Below are positions 10,437-23,013 of a DNA stretch of 33,015 nt, piece after piece. The stretch lies in assembly GCA_021847575.1 (NCBI GenBank), contig JAJZQO010000025.1, positions 1 through 33,015 of the forward strand, given 5' to 3'. The notes below the pieces were generated by a model. It searched no databases and had not been told where the DNA came from. It was given only the letters and a program-made list of their open reading frames with translations. Each line of letters begins with the position of its first letter. Positions within the stretch are counted from its first letter, which is position 1. The stretch is from Bacillota bacterium (GTDB lineage Bacteria > Bacillota > Sulfobacillia > JAJZYS01 > JAJYTV01). Made by a program: the position numbers and the translations under genes.

Positions 10437-12257
10437 ATGCGCAACATCGCCATCATAGCGCACGTCGACCACGGCAAGACGACGCTCGTCGACGCGATGC
10501 TGCGCCAGAGCGGCGTCTTCCGGGAGAACCAGCAGGTCTCGGAGCGCGTGATGGACCGCAACGAACTCGAGCGCGAGCGCGGCATCACGATCCTGGCGAA
10601 GAACACAGCCGTCGTCTACCACAAGCACACCATCAACATCGTGGACACGCCAGGCCACGCCGACTTCAGCGGCGAGGTGGAGCGCATTCTCAGCATGGTC
10701 GACGGCGCCCTGCTGGTCGTGGACGCTGTCGAGGGCCCGATGCCGCAAACCCGCTACGTCCTGCGCAAGGCGCTCGAGCAGCGCCTGCGTCCGATCGTCT
10801 TCATCAACAAGGTGGACCGCCCCGAAGCGGATCCGGCGGCGGCCCTCGACGGCGTGATCGACCTCTTCATCGCGCTCGGCGCCGGCGAGGAGCAGCTGGA
10901 GTTCCCCGTGCTCTACGGCTCGGGTCGCGCCGGTGTCGCGTCGACCGACCCGTCCCAGCCCGGAGCTGACCTGCGCCCGCTCTTCGAGACGATCCTCGAG
11001 GCCGTGCCGGGGCCCATAGCACTCACCGGGCCGCTGCAGATGCTCGTCTCGTCGCTGGACTACGACGACTACCTGGGCCGCATCGCGCTCGGCAGGATCC
11101 ACCGCGGCGTCCTGCAGCCGGGCCAGTCCGTCCTCGCCCTGCACCGCGACGAGACGCAGACCCAAGGCAAGATCGCGAAACTGTTTGTCTTCCGCGGACT
11201 CGAGCGGGTCGCCGTGGAAGAGGCCGAAGCCGGTCAGATCGTGGCCCTGAGCGGCCTGTCGAACGTCTTCGTGGGTGAGACCATCACCGATCCCGCGGAG
11301 CCAGAGCCGCTTCCTGGGCTCGTCGTGGACGAGCCCACCCTGACGATGACCTTCAGGGTCAACGACTCGCCCTTCTCGGGCCGCGAGGGACGGTACGTCA
11401 CGTCGCGGCACCTGCGCGATCGCCTATGGCGCGAGCTCGAGCGCAACGTGGCCCTGCGCGTCGAGGAGACCGACTCGCCAGACGCGTTCGTCGTCGCGGG
11501 GCGGGGCGAACTGCATCTCTCGATTCTGCTCGAGACCATGCGCCGCGAAGGCTACGAGCTCGCCGTCTCCCGGCCGGAGGTCATCCTGCGGGGCGCCGGC
11601 GACGGCGTCGAGGAGCCCTACGAGGAACTGGTGATCGATGTGCCGGAAGCCCACGTCGGGGCTGTCATGGAGGGGGTCGGACGCCGCCGCGGCGAGCTTG
11701 TCAGCATGGCACCGACCGCCGGCGAGGGGCGGCGCCTGGTGTTCCGCATCCCGTCGCGCGGCCTGATCGGTTACCGCGGCGAATTCCTCACCGCCACGAA
11801 GGGCTACGGCACGATGCACCACGTGTTGCTGGGCTACGCTGCCGCCGGCTCTCCGCCGCCGCGGCGCAACAGGGGCAGCCTCGTCGCCTCGGAGACGGGA
11901 GAGGCCACTTCCTACGCCCTCGACCAGCTGGCCGACCGCGGCACCTTCTTCATCGGTCCGCAGACGCCGGTCTACCGCGGCCAGGTGGTGGGGGAGCACA
12001 CGCGCGAGAAGGACCTGGACCTCAACGTCTGCAAGCGCAAGCACGTCACCAACGTGCGCAACGCCACCGCGGAAGAGGCCATCCGCCTGCAGTCCGCGCG
12101 CATCCTAAGCCTCGAGGACGCCCTCGAGTTCCTCGCGGACGACGAGCTTTTGGAGGTCACGCCGCAGAATCTGCGCCTGCGCAAGGCGGTGCTCGACGCG
12201 GAAGAGCGGCACAAGATCAACAAGGCGCGGCAGAAGGCGGAGGAAGCGCAAGGCTAG
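10437..12257 (+). CDS. typA: Ribosome-associated translational GTPase TypA/BipA
   Basis: A 606-residue GTPase related to EF-G and LepA that acts in ribosome assembly and stress adaptation. The G domain starts at once: [21 protein letters not shown] (P-loop), [15 protein letters not shown] (switch I), [17 protein letters not shown] and [12 protein letters not shown]. Domains II and III follow, with the TypA-specific C-terminal block [38 protein letters not shown] and [15 protein letters not shown], distinguishing it from LepA and EF-G. ATG 10437 has no ribosome binding site, and relatives have several residues before RNIAIIAH. In frame, CTG 10386 lies 8 bases after AGGGGG (10372-10377) and would add 17 residues, so a non-AUG start is possible. 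Confidence 0.95.
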
Positions 12258-12278
12258 ATTCCATTTACTGGCGTTATA

Positions 12279-12309
12279 GGCTACAATTCCTTGCGGAGGG
12301 ATTGTAGCC
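12279..12309. repeat. 31-bp near-perfect palindrome (12-7-12) abutting a recombinase-like gene
   Basis: GGCTACAATTCC (12279-12290) and GGGATTGTAGCC (12298-12309) are inverted repeats matching at 11 of 12 positions around a 7-base centre (TTGCGGA). The outer nine pairs are perfect. The right arm ends at the base before ATG 12310, and the GGAGGG ribosome binding site spans the centre and right arm. Arm and spacer sizes match core sites of tyrosine recombinases. It could equally be an operator or an mRNA hairpin that hides the ribosome binding site; TACAAT (12282-12287) could also serve as a -10. Confidence 0.75.
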
Positions 12310-13122
12310 ATGCTGTTTCTGGACGCAGTCGAGAGATGCCTCGCAACGCTGCAGACGCTGGGCCGCGGGCGGCAGACGATCGCCGCCTACCGCGCCGACC
12401 TCATGCTCTACGGCCGGCACGCGGCCGGGCAATTGCGCCAGCCGCTCGGCGAACTGCTGCTCGAGGAGTGCGCCGCGCTTGGCGTGGACGGCTACCTGCG
12501 GGAACTGCAGGAAGTCCGGCGCAACGCCCCCGCCACGCTGGCCCGCCGTCTCGCCTCGCTGCGCGCGCTCTACGGCGCCACGTGGCGGGAGGCGGGCCTG
12601 CAGGACAACCCCGCGCAAGCCATCGCCTATCCCGGCGGGAAGAGGCGCTCGGTTCCCGCCCTCGACCTGGACGCCGCGCGCTCGCTGGTGCGGGCCGCCG
12701 CCTACCAGAGCCGCACGCCGCTGCGCGACGCCCTGATGCTGACGCTGATGCTGGGCAACGGTCTGAGCCTGGCCGAGCTCGTGCGGCTGGACAGTTGCGA
12801 TGTCGACGTCGCCCGACGGGAGATCGTCGTGAGGGGACGGCGCGGCCGCAAGCGGACGGTCCCGGTCTCGCACGCGACGGCCATCCTGCTCGCACGGCAT
12901 ATCGCAAGCCAGCCCGGGGGACCGCTCTGGTGCAACCGGCAGGGCCGGCGGCTATCGCCGCGGGGCGTCCAGTACGTCTGCCAGCGCGCTTCGCGGCATG
13001 CGCGCGTCGACGGTCACGCCTCGGCGCAGGCCCTCAGGGCCACGGCGAGGCGCTTGATGCGCCGGGCCGGAGCCAGTCCCGCCACACTGCGAGCCCTGCT
13101 CGGCGTCGAGAGTGCGGTATAG
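12310..13122 (+). CDS. Tyrosine-recombinase/integrase-like protein, catalytically degenerate
   Basis: A 270-residue protein with the two-domain layout of XerC/XerD: an N-terminal SAM-like core-binding domain (GRGRQTIAAYRADLMLYGRH, LARRLASLRALYGATWREAG) and a catalytic-like domain (RDALMLTLMLGNGLSLAELVRLDSCDVD). The active-site set is mostly gone: the box I Arg (normally GLR) is Ser153, the hairpin Lys is in an all-Arg stretch (GRRGRKR), the HxxR His is Gln240 (its Arg243 remains), the LLGH His is Val266, and the protein ends at residue 270, before the nucleophilic Tyr. It therefore should bind DNA but not cut it. The start is firm: GGAGGG at 12295-12300. It follows typA by 52 bases and converges on the histidine kinase gene with 6 bases between. 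Confidence 0.8.
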   Translation: MLFLDAVERCLATLQTLGRGRQTIAAYRADLMLYGRHAAGQLRQPLGELLLEECAALGVDGYLRELQEVRRNAPATLARRLASLRALYGATWREAGLQDNPAQAIAYPGGKRRSVPALDLDAARSLVRAAAYQSRTPLRDALMLTLMLGNGLSLAELVRLDSCDVDVARREIVVRGRRGRKRTVPVSHATAILLARHIASQPGGPLWCNRQGRRLSPRGVQYVCQRASRHARVDGHASAQALRATARRLMRRAGASPATLRALLGVESAV

Positions 13123-16668: not shown

Positions 16669-16930
16669 TGAAACGGCCTCCTTACGGAGACAACTCGGCT
16701 TTCGCCGGTAAAGTGAGCCTCGCCGATGTTATCCGGGCTTGTCGTGTCCAGGACGCTGGCTTCGACCCCGTACGCCTGTTTGACCCTGGACGACAGAGCG
16801 GCAGGCTGGCTCGCGCACCCGCCGGTGTCGTAACCCGGATAACGTAGCCCGATGGTCCGAAGACCCTGGCTGGGGCTGGTCAACCCCGGACTTGCCTCAG
16901 CCGGCCCCCGGCTTTAGCCGTGGGGTGGTT
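16669..16930 (-). ncRNA. Putative omegaRNA scaffold of IscB
   Basis: IscB guide RNAs are transcribed from the region just upstream of iscB. This stretch has no gene but strong pairing: CCCGGATAAC (16834-16843) with GTTATCCGGG (16728-16737), a perfect 10-base long-range stem; GTCCAGG with CCTGGAC near 16746-16790; and a small CTCC-loop-GGAG hairpin (16678-16689) that also contains the iscB ribosome binding site. The guide would come from the flank beyond the left-end repeat, at about 16926-16950. Boundaries are approximate. Confidence 0.6.
16904..16925 (-). repeat. IscB element left-end repeat
   Basis: Second copy of the 22-base end repeat (core CCCCCGGCTTTAGCCGTGGGG), differing at one base from 15245-15266. 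It sits about 240 bases upstream of the iscB start, at the expected 5' edge of the element and of the omegaRNA scaffold. Confidence 0.65.
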
Positions 16931-17044
16931 GACTCCCCTGGGCGCAGCGTCAGCGGTGGCCGAGTGTACGGTTCGCGGCCCAGGGCGGCTCTCCCTGCGT
17001 GTCCGCGGCAGGCGTTGACGGCAGCAGAGGGGAATACCACCACC

Positions 17045-17645: not shown

Positions 17646-17674
17646 TTGGCATTACTTGGCTTTTGGCCTAGAAT
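17646..17674 (+). promoter_or_regulatory. Sigma-A-type promoter of the S41-like gene
   Basis: TTGGCA (17646-17651), a 17-base spacer, and TAGAAT (17669-17674): five of six matches in both boxes. Transcription would start near 17681, about 36 bases before the TTG start codon. Confidence 0.7.
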
Positions 17675-17716
17675 CCCTCCAGTCGACCAAGCTTTGGCGA
17701 ACGGAGGGAGCCTGGC

Positions 17717-19042
17717 TTGCGTTTGAAGCTGCTCTTTGCGGGCCTCGCGTTGCTCGCCCTGTCGGCCCTTTGCGTGCCGCGCTTCGCGCCCCAGGACCTC
17801 GCGGTGCCATTGCCCGAAGCCCGGCTGGACCTGCTCGCGACCGCCCGGCAGGTGATCGCGACCCATCCCGACTTCACAGAGCTCGGGCAGGGCAGCGCCA
17901 GCTATCTCGCCTTCGTGCGCACTCTCCAGGGCGATCTGCGCGAACCGCTGCCCTGGTGGCGGGTCTACGAGGACGAGGACCTCGTCCTGAACTACGTCCA
18001 CGACCCCCACACCAACCTGCAGAACAACTTTTCGCCGTTCTCGAGTCCGGACATCCTGCCGCTCGGCTTCGACTGGGCGAGGGGTGGGCTCGTCGCCTAC
18101 CGCGTGGCGGGCTCGCCGCGCGCCGTCCGGACGGGCGACCGCGTCCTCCAGATCGGCGGCTTGCCGGTAGCTGGGCTGCTCCCGCGCCTGCGCAGGTTCC
18201 TGAGCGGCAATGGGCCATGGCTCAGGACGCTCGCGGGCCTCACCCTGCCCTTCGGCGACACCCTGCGCTGGCTCGGTCTGGTGCGCAAGGGTCGGGTGGA
18301 GTTGCGCCTCTCGTCGCCGTCCGGACAGACCTACAGCATCTCCGAGGATCTCGTGCCCACAGACCTCGCAAGCGCGCGGGCCTACCTGCTCGGAGAGCAG
18401 AATTTCATGGCGCGCTACATCGCGCCGCCGAGGTCTGTCCTGACGCATGCCGGCCCCTTCTACGCCTGGGGCCTCACGCCGGACTACGCCCTCTTCACGC
18501 TCGCGAGCTGCGACGACACTCCTGGCTACGAAAGGGCCATCACGGCCTTCTTCCGTGCGGCGCAGGCAGCCGACGTCGGGTACGTGGTCATCGACCTGCA
18601 GCAGAACATGGGTGGCGACGAGGCCGTCGCGCAGCCCATGCTCCGGTACCTGCCGCTGCGCCCCGCCTACACAAACCGGCAGGATCCTGTCAATCCGCGC
18701 CAGATCTACCGCGGCAAAGTCTACGTCCTGATCGACGGGGGCAGCATGAGCTCCGCGGTCGATATCGCCGAACTGCTCAGCGAAGCAGGCTACGCGACAC
18801 TCGTCGGCAGTCCGGCGGGGATGGCGAGCCAGGCGCCGGGCAACGTTCAGTCCTACCGCACGCCGGACGGCCGCATGGCGTACATCGTGTCTACGGAGTT
18901 CGTGCCTTCCGTCAACGGGCAGGTCACGCCGGCTCTGGCTCCGGCCATCAGCCTGCCTCTGACCGCGCGCGACATCGCGCGCGGGCGCAATCCCGTGGCC
19001 GCATGGCTCGGCAAGCTCGCGGCGCCCCGCGTCAAGACCTGA
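17717..19042 (+). CDS. Exported S41-family (tail-specific-protease-like) peptidase
   Basis: A 441-residue protein with a signal peptide (LKLLFAGLALLALSALC; Cys19 could make it a lipoprotein). The middle contains a short PDZ-like part (GLVAYRVAGSPRAVRTGDRVLQIGGLPVAGLLPRLR). The C-terminal domain is S41-like: YVVIDLQQNMGGDEAV (DLRxNxGG equivalent), VYVLIDGGSMSSAVDIAELL with the likely nucleophile Ser in GGSxSS, then TLVGSPAG. In classical CtpA proteases a Lys follows the VGxxT motif; here it reads LVGSPAGMAS, so the dyad may differ. TTG 17717 is chosen because GGAGGGAG (17703-17710) is 6 bases upstream. It has its own promoter. The substrate is unknown. Confidence 0.78.
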   Translation: MRLKLLFAGLALLALSALCVPRFAPQDLAVPLPEARLDLLATARQVIATHPDFTELGQGSASYLAFVRTLQGDLREPLPWWRVYEDEDLVLNYVHDPHTNLQNNFSPFSSPDILPLGFDWARGGLVAYRVAGSPRAVRTGDRVLQIGGLPVAGLLPRLRRFLSGNGPWLRTLAGLTLPFGDTLRWLGLVRKGRVELRLSSPSGQTYSISEDLVPTDLASARAYLLGEQNFMARYIAPPRSVLTHAGPFYAWGLTPDYALFTLASCDDTPGYERAITAFFRAAQAADVGYVVIDLQQNMGGDEAVAQPMLRYLPLRPAYTNRQDPVNPRQIYRGKVYVLIDGGSMSSAVDIAELLSEAGYATLVGSPAGMASQAPGNVQSYRTPDGRMAYIVSTEFVPSVNGQVTPALAPAISLPLTARDIARGRNPVAAWLGKLAAPRVKT

Positions 19043-22805: not shown

Positions 22806-22831
22806 CAAAAAATGCGCCTGAGGGCGCATGC
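22806..22831 (-). terminator. Intrinsic terminator of the metY leader
   Basis: On the minus strand ATGCGCC-CTCA-GGCGCAT (plus 22812-22829) is followed by a run of six T. It sits between the SAM-I aptamer and the metY ribosome binding site, the expression platform expected for transcriptional control: SAM bound, the terminator forms. Confidence 0.85.
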
Positions 22832-22844
22832 TGTTCGCTGACCC

Positions 22845-22952
22845 TCTTATCTCTCAACCCGGAGCTCCCGGGTTGCAGGAATTGGCACCGACGGCGCGTA
22901 GCGCCCGGTTGCCGGGTTTCATTGGGCCAGTCCCTCCACCTCTCGCGATAAC
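22845..22952 (-). ncRNA. SAM-I (S-box) riboswitch
   Basis: The minus strand carries the S-box consensus in order: TTATCGCGAGAGGTGGAGGG (5' P1 side and start of P2), ACTGGCCCAATGAAACCCGGCA, GGTGCCAATTCC and a closing GAGAGATAAG whose GATAA pairs with TTATC to form P1. These are the conserved core bases of SAM-I aptamers. It is followed by the intrinsic terminator and metY. High SAM should switch metY-metX off. Confidence 0.95.
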
Positions 22953-23013
22953 AGGTACTTATGCAGTTGTCGAAACGGCTACGGCGGTGCCTCCTCTCGT
23001 GGATATTGACGCC

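Follow-up and report, generated by a model that had tools for sequence, protein, structure and literature searches.

The transposase leaders of IS10 and IS200 form a stem-loop that masks the ribosome binding site in transcripts arriving from outside, and in those alone. In phage T4, the leader structure of the lysozyme gene e is described as lowering lysozyme synthesis 100-fold (PMC3014915). Long transcripts of gene e that start upstream have their ribosome binding site masked by a hairpin, and a nearby promoter, located in the DNA that encodes the 5′ strand of the hairpin, gives rise to messages without that strand, which are translated (PMC3014915). An equivalent hairpin/promoter layout is reported for I-TevI and other T4 homing endonucleases, and I-TevI represses its own promoter, where an operator is combined with an RBS hairpin (PMC2988022). 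MrpR (YopR), the master repressor of SPbeta, is described as having a recombinase fold without recombinase activity, binding many repeated elements, and retaining the Tyr and Lys residues (PMC10516654).

We describe here an inverted repeat located upstream of the gene of a catalytically dead tyrosine recombinase, in a window (the whole stretch of DNA that was analysed) of 33,015 nucleotides from a Bacillota bacterium. With moderate confidence, we read this palindrome as a promoter-embedded RNA hairpin that would silence read-through messages of the recombinase gene. As such a hairpin gate, it would be a fresh example of an established design, at an unusual location. Like gene e, the locus has a hairpin, in our case a predicted one, over the ribosome binding site, and a −10-like hexamer in its 5′ arm may belong to a promoter. 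Gene e, however, is a phage gene with a T4 late promoter, whereas the present gene is located on a bacterial chromosome behind a putative housekeeping-type promoter, the −10 of which lies itself within the stem. The likeness to I-TevI would lie in a hairpin/promoter layout on the gene for a DNA-recombining protein; I-TevI is an active GIY-YIG endonuclease within an intron, whereas the present protein is a dead tyrosine recombinase encoded behind typA. The IS10 and IS200 leaders would share the silencing of outside transcripts, but differ in belonging to mobile elements. MrpR has the tyrosine-recombinase fold with catalytic residues lost and offers a precedent for a DNA-binding role; however, the present protein ends before the Tyr, whereas MrpR keeps Tyr and Lys, and the locus has one site with inconstant arm spacing, compared with the many repeated elements of MrpR. 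In the accessible portions of the open-access literature on RBS-hiding or read-through-blocking hairpins and on autoregulated dead recombinases, we found no bacterial chromosomal recombinase with this gate layout; a paper on the IS elements of A. asiaticus proved to have no bearing on the question.

Gene context and loss of the catalytic residues

The features of the locus are listed in Table 1. The upstream open reading frame, which we take from its sequence to be a typA/bipA-like gene, was directly upstream in all nine relatives (82–92% identity), and its stop is separated from the recombinase ATG by a gap of 52 nt. Behind the recombinase gene comes a convergent histidine kinase gene, on the same contig in eight of the nine relatives; in the remaining genome (G005), it is found on a second contig, and the recombinase gene itself is split over two contigs.

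Table 1. Coordinates of the features of the locus (positions in the window)
Feature	Position	Strand	Remarks
typA/bipA-like translational GTPase gene, upstream	10437..12257	+	open reading frame; stop 21 nt before the left arm
Putative −35, TTCCAT	12259..12264	+	TTCCA invariant in 10 of 10 genomes
12-7-12 inverted repeat	12279–12309	+	GGCTACAATTCC-TTGCGGA-GGGATTGTAGCC
Left hairpin arm	12279..12292	+	14 RNA pairs with 12296–12309
Putative −10, TACAAT	12282..12287	+	inside the left arm; spacer of 17 in 10 of 10 genomes
Hairpin loop	12293..12295	+	putative transcription start predicted here, 6–8 nt past the −10
Shine-Dalgarno, GGAGGG	12295..12300	+	within the stem (sequence, predicted fold)
Right hairpin arm	12296..12309	+	abuts the ATG
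Catalytically dead Xer-like tyrosine recombinase, 270 aa	12310..13122	+	profile match, residue comparison, predicted structure

Catalytic residues were judged against an XerD-like protein of the same family with the full set. By this comparison, the first Arg is replaced by Ser or Thr, the H-x-x-R motif by Q-x-x-R, and the second His by Val or Leu, while the C-terminus falls before the position of the catalytic Tyr; the gene product is thus a dead recombinase, as the first-pass annotation had it. The predicted model (mean pLDDT 81, pTM 0.57) keeps both recombinase-fold domains and resembles XerA, XerH and lambda Int (Z about 17–21, with a large rmsd for whole chains), with YopR/MrpR and SroF chains also among the structural matches.

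The gene was present in all ten genomes of the family, which covers two genera; those records that carry a name are MAGs with the label Bacillota or Clostridia. In the other five genomes of the order, all matches found were of the strength seen for the ordinary XerD-like paralogue. The gene looks domesticated rather than decaying, since it is present in 10 of 10 genomes, the copies of the family contain no interrupting stop codons, and the typA and histidine kinase neighbours are kept. The recombinase profile also matched, over residues 6–271, PDB chain 9i5v_14 (401 residues), which is named ribosome-associated translation inhibitor RaiA and is either a recombinase-RaiA fusion or a mislabelled chain; a literature search for a paper with this entry code found none.

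The inverted repeat and its conservation

The 12-7-12 repeat is just as the first-pass annotation gave it: the GGCTACAATTCC and GGGATTGTAGCC arms match at 11 of 12 positions, the Shine-Dalgarno sequence lies in the repeat, as had been claimed, and the 3′ end falls directly before the ATG at 12310. The single mismatch, a T opposite a G, becomes a wobble pair in RNA. The predicted RNA fold has a 14-pair stem and a 3-nt loop, with an energy of −33.7 kcal/mol over 86 nt (z = −4.2; none of 200 shuffles was equally good).

As a lone repeat in the focal genome, the palindrome is not exceptional. Across 345,270 bases of that genome, 72 sites carried a comparable repeat (12-bp arms, at most one mismatch, centre of 3–9 nt). 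Among 344 open reading frame starts preceded by a Shine-Dalgarno sequence, 20, including the focal one, had an equal or stronger fold energy over −42..+3, and the focal start ranked 7th by shuffle z over −54..+3 (−4.26). A search for further copies, as the annotation had proposed, found the close pattern once in the 2.86-Mb focal genome. The loose GGCTAC/GTAGCC pattern had matches in nine of the ten genomes, in each case fewer than its reversed-pattern control; the focal locus was matched in all six members of its genus, and the remaining matches were scattered. CTGCTA/TAGCAG was matched in three of the ten genomes, solely at the focal locus.

It is conservation that places the palindrome above chance: all ten family genomes have, upstream of the gene, an inverted repeat whose 3′ end reaches or takes in the start codon, with a shuffle z of −2.8 to −5.6 for the upstream regions. 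The annotation had named a lack of conservation in relatives as grounds for refutation; with 10 of 10, the site withstood this check. The other five members of the first genus have the stem CAUAGGCUAC.../...GUAGCCUAUG, with the AUG inside it; its sister-genus counterpart is UCUGCUAUCC.../...GGGUAGCAGA, apart from minor changes, and is followed by a UUG start. The palindrome is real and has been maintained throughout a small bacterial family. The comparison of arms and centre in relatives, which had been suggested as a check, showed an inverted repeat in 10 of 10 genomes, arm sequences that differ between genera and a centre of no fixed length, with a spacing between the conserved arm motifs GCTA and TAGC of 17, 18, 19, 21 or 22 bases across the ten sequences.

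Pairing was counted in a structure-anchored layout, because MAFFT alignments of both genera displace the right arm by 2–3 columns. This layout comprised nine sequences and 14 pairs (one genome, G003, was left out as a near copy of G004); it leaves out positions out5, in6 and in7, which pair less well, and leans towards structure. With this leaning, the 126 cells held 102 Watson-Crick pairs, 14 G-U, 0 A-C and 10 others, and both sides had changed with pairing kept at six stem pairs. The mean duplex energy was −23.6 for native arms and −15.2 for cross-genus arms; the arms fit within genera, and no longer between them. Pairing within genera stood at about 95% and fell to 67% or below once the register was slid. 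Within-genus alignments that were not fitted to structure contained one and zero doubly changed pairs, respectively, and did not exceed shuffles, so that the covariation rests mainly on the single branch between the genera. Antisense folds were weaker in eight of nine sequences.

Overall, these features favour an RNA role, as judged from sequence: the arm spacing ranges between 17 and 22 nt, unlike that of a recombinase core; the imperfect pairs include 14 G-U against 0 A-C, a pattern that an RNA would accept on the sense strand but not on the other; and the Shine-Dalgarno sequence and start codon would be hidden. Part of the G-U bias may come from the G-rich Shine-Dalgarno sequence. A recombination core or a dimer operator is expected to hold the distance between its arms constant. 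The alternative that the annotation had put last, an RNA structure hiding the ribosome binding site, is hence the one that the data best support, the predicted stem covering the Shine-Dalgarno sequence in all ten genomes.

A promoter-like element and the proposed effect on read-through messages

What the first-pass annotation had overlooked is that the left arm coincides with the −10 of a promoter-like element that all ten genomes share. Immediately after the typA stop, TTCCA is followed, at a 17-nt spacing fixed in 10 of 10 genomes, by a −10-like hexamer, which is TACAAT in the first genus and TATCCT or TATTCT in the sister genus. The hexamer lies in the left arm in every genome, a placement that may match the T4 type, and the −35 is weak; a consensus promoter scan did not call the element, the −35 of which is a poor match to TTGACA. 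The combined TTCCA/−10 motif occurs once per genome, at the focal locus alone, in all ten genomes (0 for the reversed control). As it was drawn from the same sequences in which it was scanned, the telling point is its absence elsewhere in the genomes. Moreover, the loop and the arm spacing vary while the distance from TTCCA to the −10 remains constant (17).

An RNA begun 6–8 nt past this −10 would start in or beside the loop, and so carry little or none of the left arm. Predicted energies for opening −16..+3 ranged from 17.4 to 23.6 kcal/mol in read-through RNA, compared with 4.0 to 10.9 kcal/mol in RNA started 7 nt past the −10 (10 of 10 genomes in both cases). The start codon was predicted to be more accessible in the short message in all ten genomes, and the mean accessibility of the Shine-Dalgarno sequence was predicted to be higher in just six. 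A stem that sequesters the Shine-Dalgarno sequence, the start codon or both in read-through RNA, as in T4, was predicted in 10 of 10 genomes.

From the sequence, its conservation, the predicted stems and the pairing statistics, we infer a promoter activity, a start site, read-through from typA and an effect on translation that would work together as follows. The left arm would be the −10 region of the recombinase gene's own putative promoter, and the right arm would carry the Shine-Dalgarno sequence and abut or include the start codon. Read-through messages from typA would hold both arms, form a hairpin of 12–17 pairs and stay untranslated; a ribosome terminating on typA would halt 21 nt short of the left arm and should leave the stem intact. 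Transcripts initiated at the recombinase gene's promoter would start in the loop, without the left arm, and be translatable. With read-through messages silent and own-promoter messages active, expression would thus depend on that promoter and be insulated from typA.

If this is true, a regulatory design documented in T4 has been carried into a bacterial chromosome, and expression of the dead recombinase is both controlled and selected throughout the family, so that the gene is not debris. The embedded promoter together with the variable loop would also serve as a signature by which to find gates of this kind in further genomes. A scan for a wider habit used a crude gene set (162 starts from 345 kb), in which 14 starts had a 6-nt anti-Shine-Dalgarno sequence upstream; one of the 14 abutted TANNNT, with about 0.3 expected, so that a genome-wide habit is unsupported. 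The focal gene is outside these matches because its pairing includes wobble.

Alternative readings and other sites

Second to the RNA reading, and tentative, is a DNA operator, an idea already put forward in the first-pass annotation, at which the dead recombinase or another dimeric protein would bind the palindrome and repress the gene, the arms having drifted along with the protein. The repeat covers the putative −10 and start, which is the usual position of an operator, and the predicted model, as mentioned above, keeps both recombinase-fold domains and has YopR/MrpR and SroF chains among its structural matches; MrpR of SPbeta is itself a repressor with a recombinase fold (PMC10516654). However, the distance between the arms differs by as much as 5 bp, roughly half a turn of the helix, the strand bias of the asymmetries is not predicted by DNA binding, and the genome holds a single site, and so no regulon. 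The operator and the RNA gate may also both hold, since I-TevI, whose promoter unites an operator and an RBS hairpin, is an autorepressor as well (PMC2988022). That one 31-bp element should serve as −10 promoter, read-through RNA gate and operator for the dead recombinase is rather unlikely. If it did, a family-specific domesticated Xer protein would be a regulator setting its own level, under a double lock like that of I-TevI, within a bacterial chromosome.

Third, and improbable, is an intrinsic terminator of typA with a U-rich tail reaching into the first recombinase codons. A scan lists the hairpin as terminator-like; the relatives have a moderately U-rich stretch past the stem, and the 52-nt gap leaves typA no other room for a terminator. 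Nevertheless, the strong stem is followed by the tail AUGCUGUUUC, without a clean U run, whereas the terminator-like site near a SAM riboswitch in the same window has TTTTT; the stem hides the Shine-Dalgarno sequence in 10 of 10 genomes, and the chance rate for such scans is about 0.4 site per 500 bases.

The leading interpretation of the first-pass annotation, a former att/dif/lox-like core site of a tyrosine recombinase, is highly improbable: the 12-7-12 geometry of the focal genome and the adjoining recombinase-derived gene speak for it, but the centre is of no fixed length (17–22 bases between the arm motifs), the arms differ between genera, no second copy of the same kind was found, the neighbours are the same in relatives with no sign of an inserted element, and dif-like candidates lie elsewhere in the sister genus. 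The latter came from a search with a dif motif for Firmicutes, which had candidates in three of the four sister-genus genomes, away from the focal locus. A CATAAGTGCACCTTATGTTAA-like conserved site was observed in three of the four sister-genus genomes (L084, L085 and L086, at or near 1501–1521); it may be a dif candidate or a regulator site.

Other hairpins and structured RNAs were noted. At L073:2465–2500, a hairpin lies over a Shine-Dalgarno sequence, directly 5′ of the TTG start of a 664-aa open reading frame with a signal-peptide-like start; no −10-like hexamer was seen in its left arm. In the window, positions 17646–17719 (+) contain TTGGCA-17-TAGAAT directly followed by CCCTCC, complementary to the GGAGGG Shine-Dalgarno sequence of the gene at 17717. 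In some relatives, TACACT or TAAACT precedes CCCG and the Shine-Dalgarno position reads CGGGAG, and in other copies this is not so; this is a possible second case of a gate, or could be just a C-rich stretch after a −10. The window also contains a HEARO RNA (HNH endonuclease-associated RNA and ORF) at 16708–16933 (−; 130 bits) and the SAM riboswitch at 22844–22954 (−; 85 bits), downstream of which the terminator-like site with its T run is located at 22829–22812.
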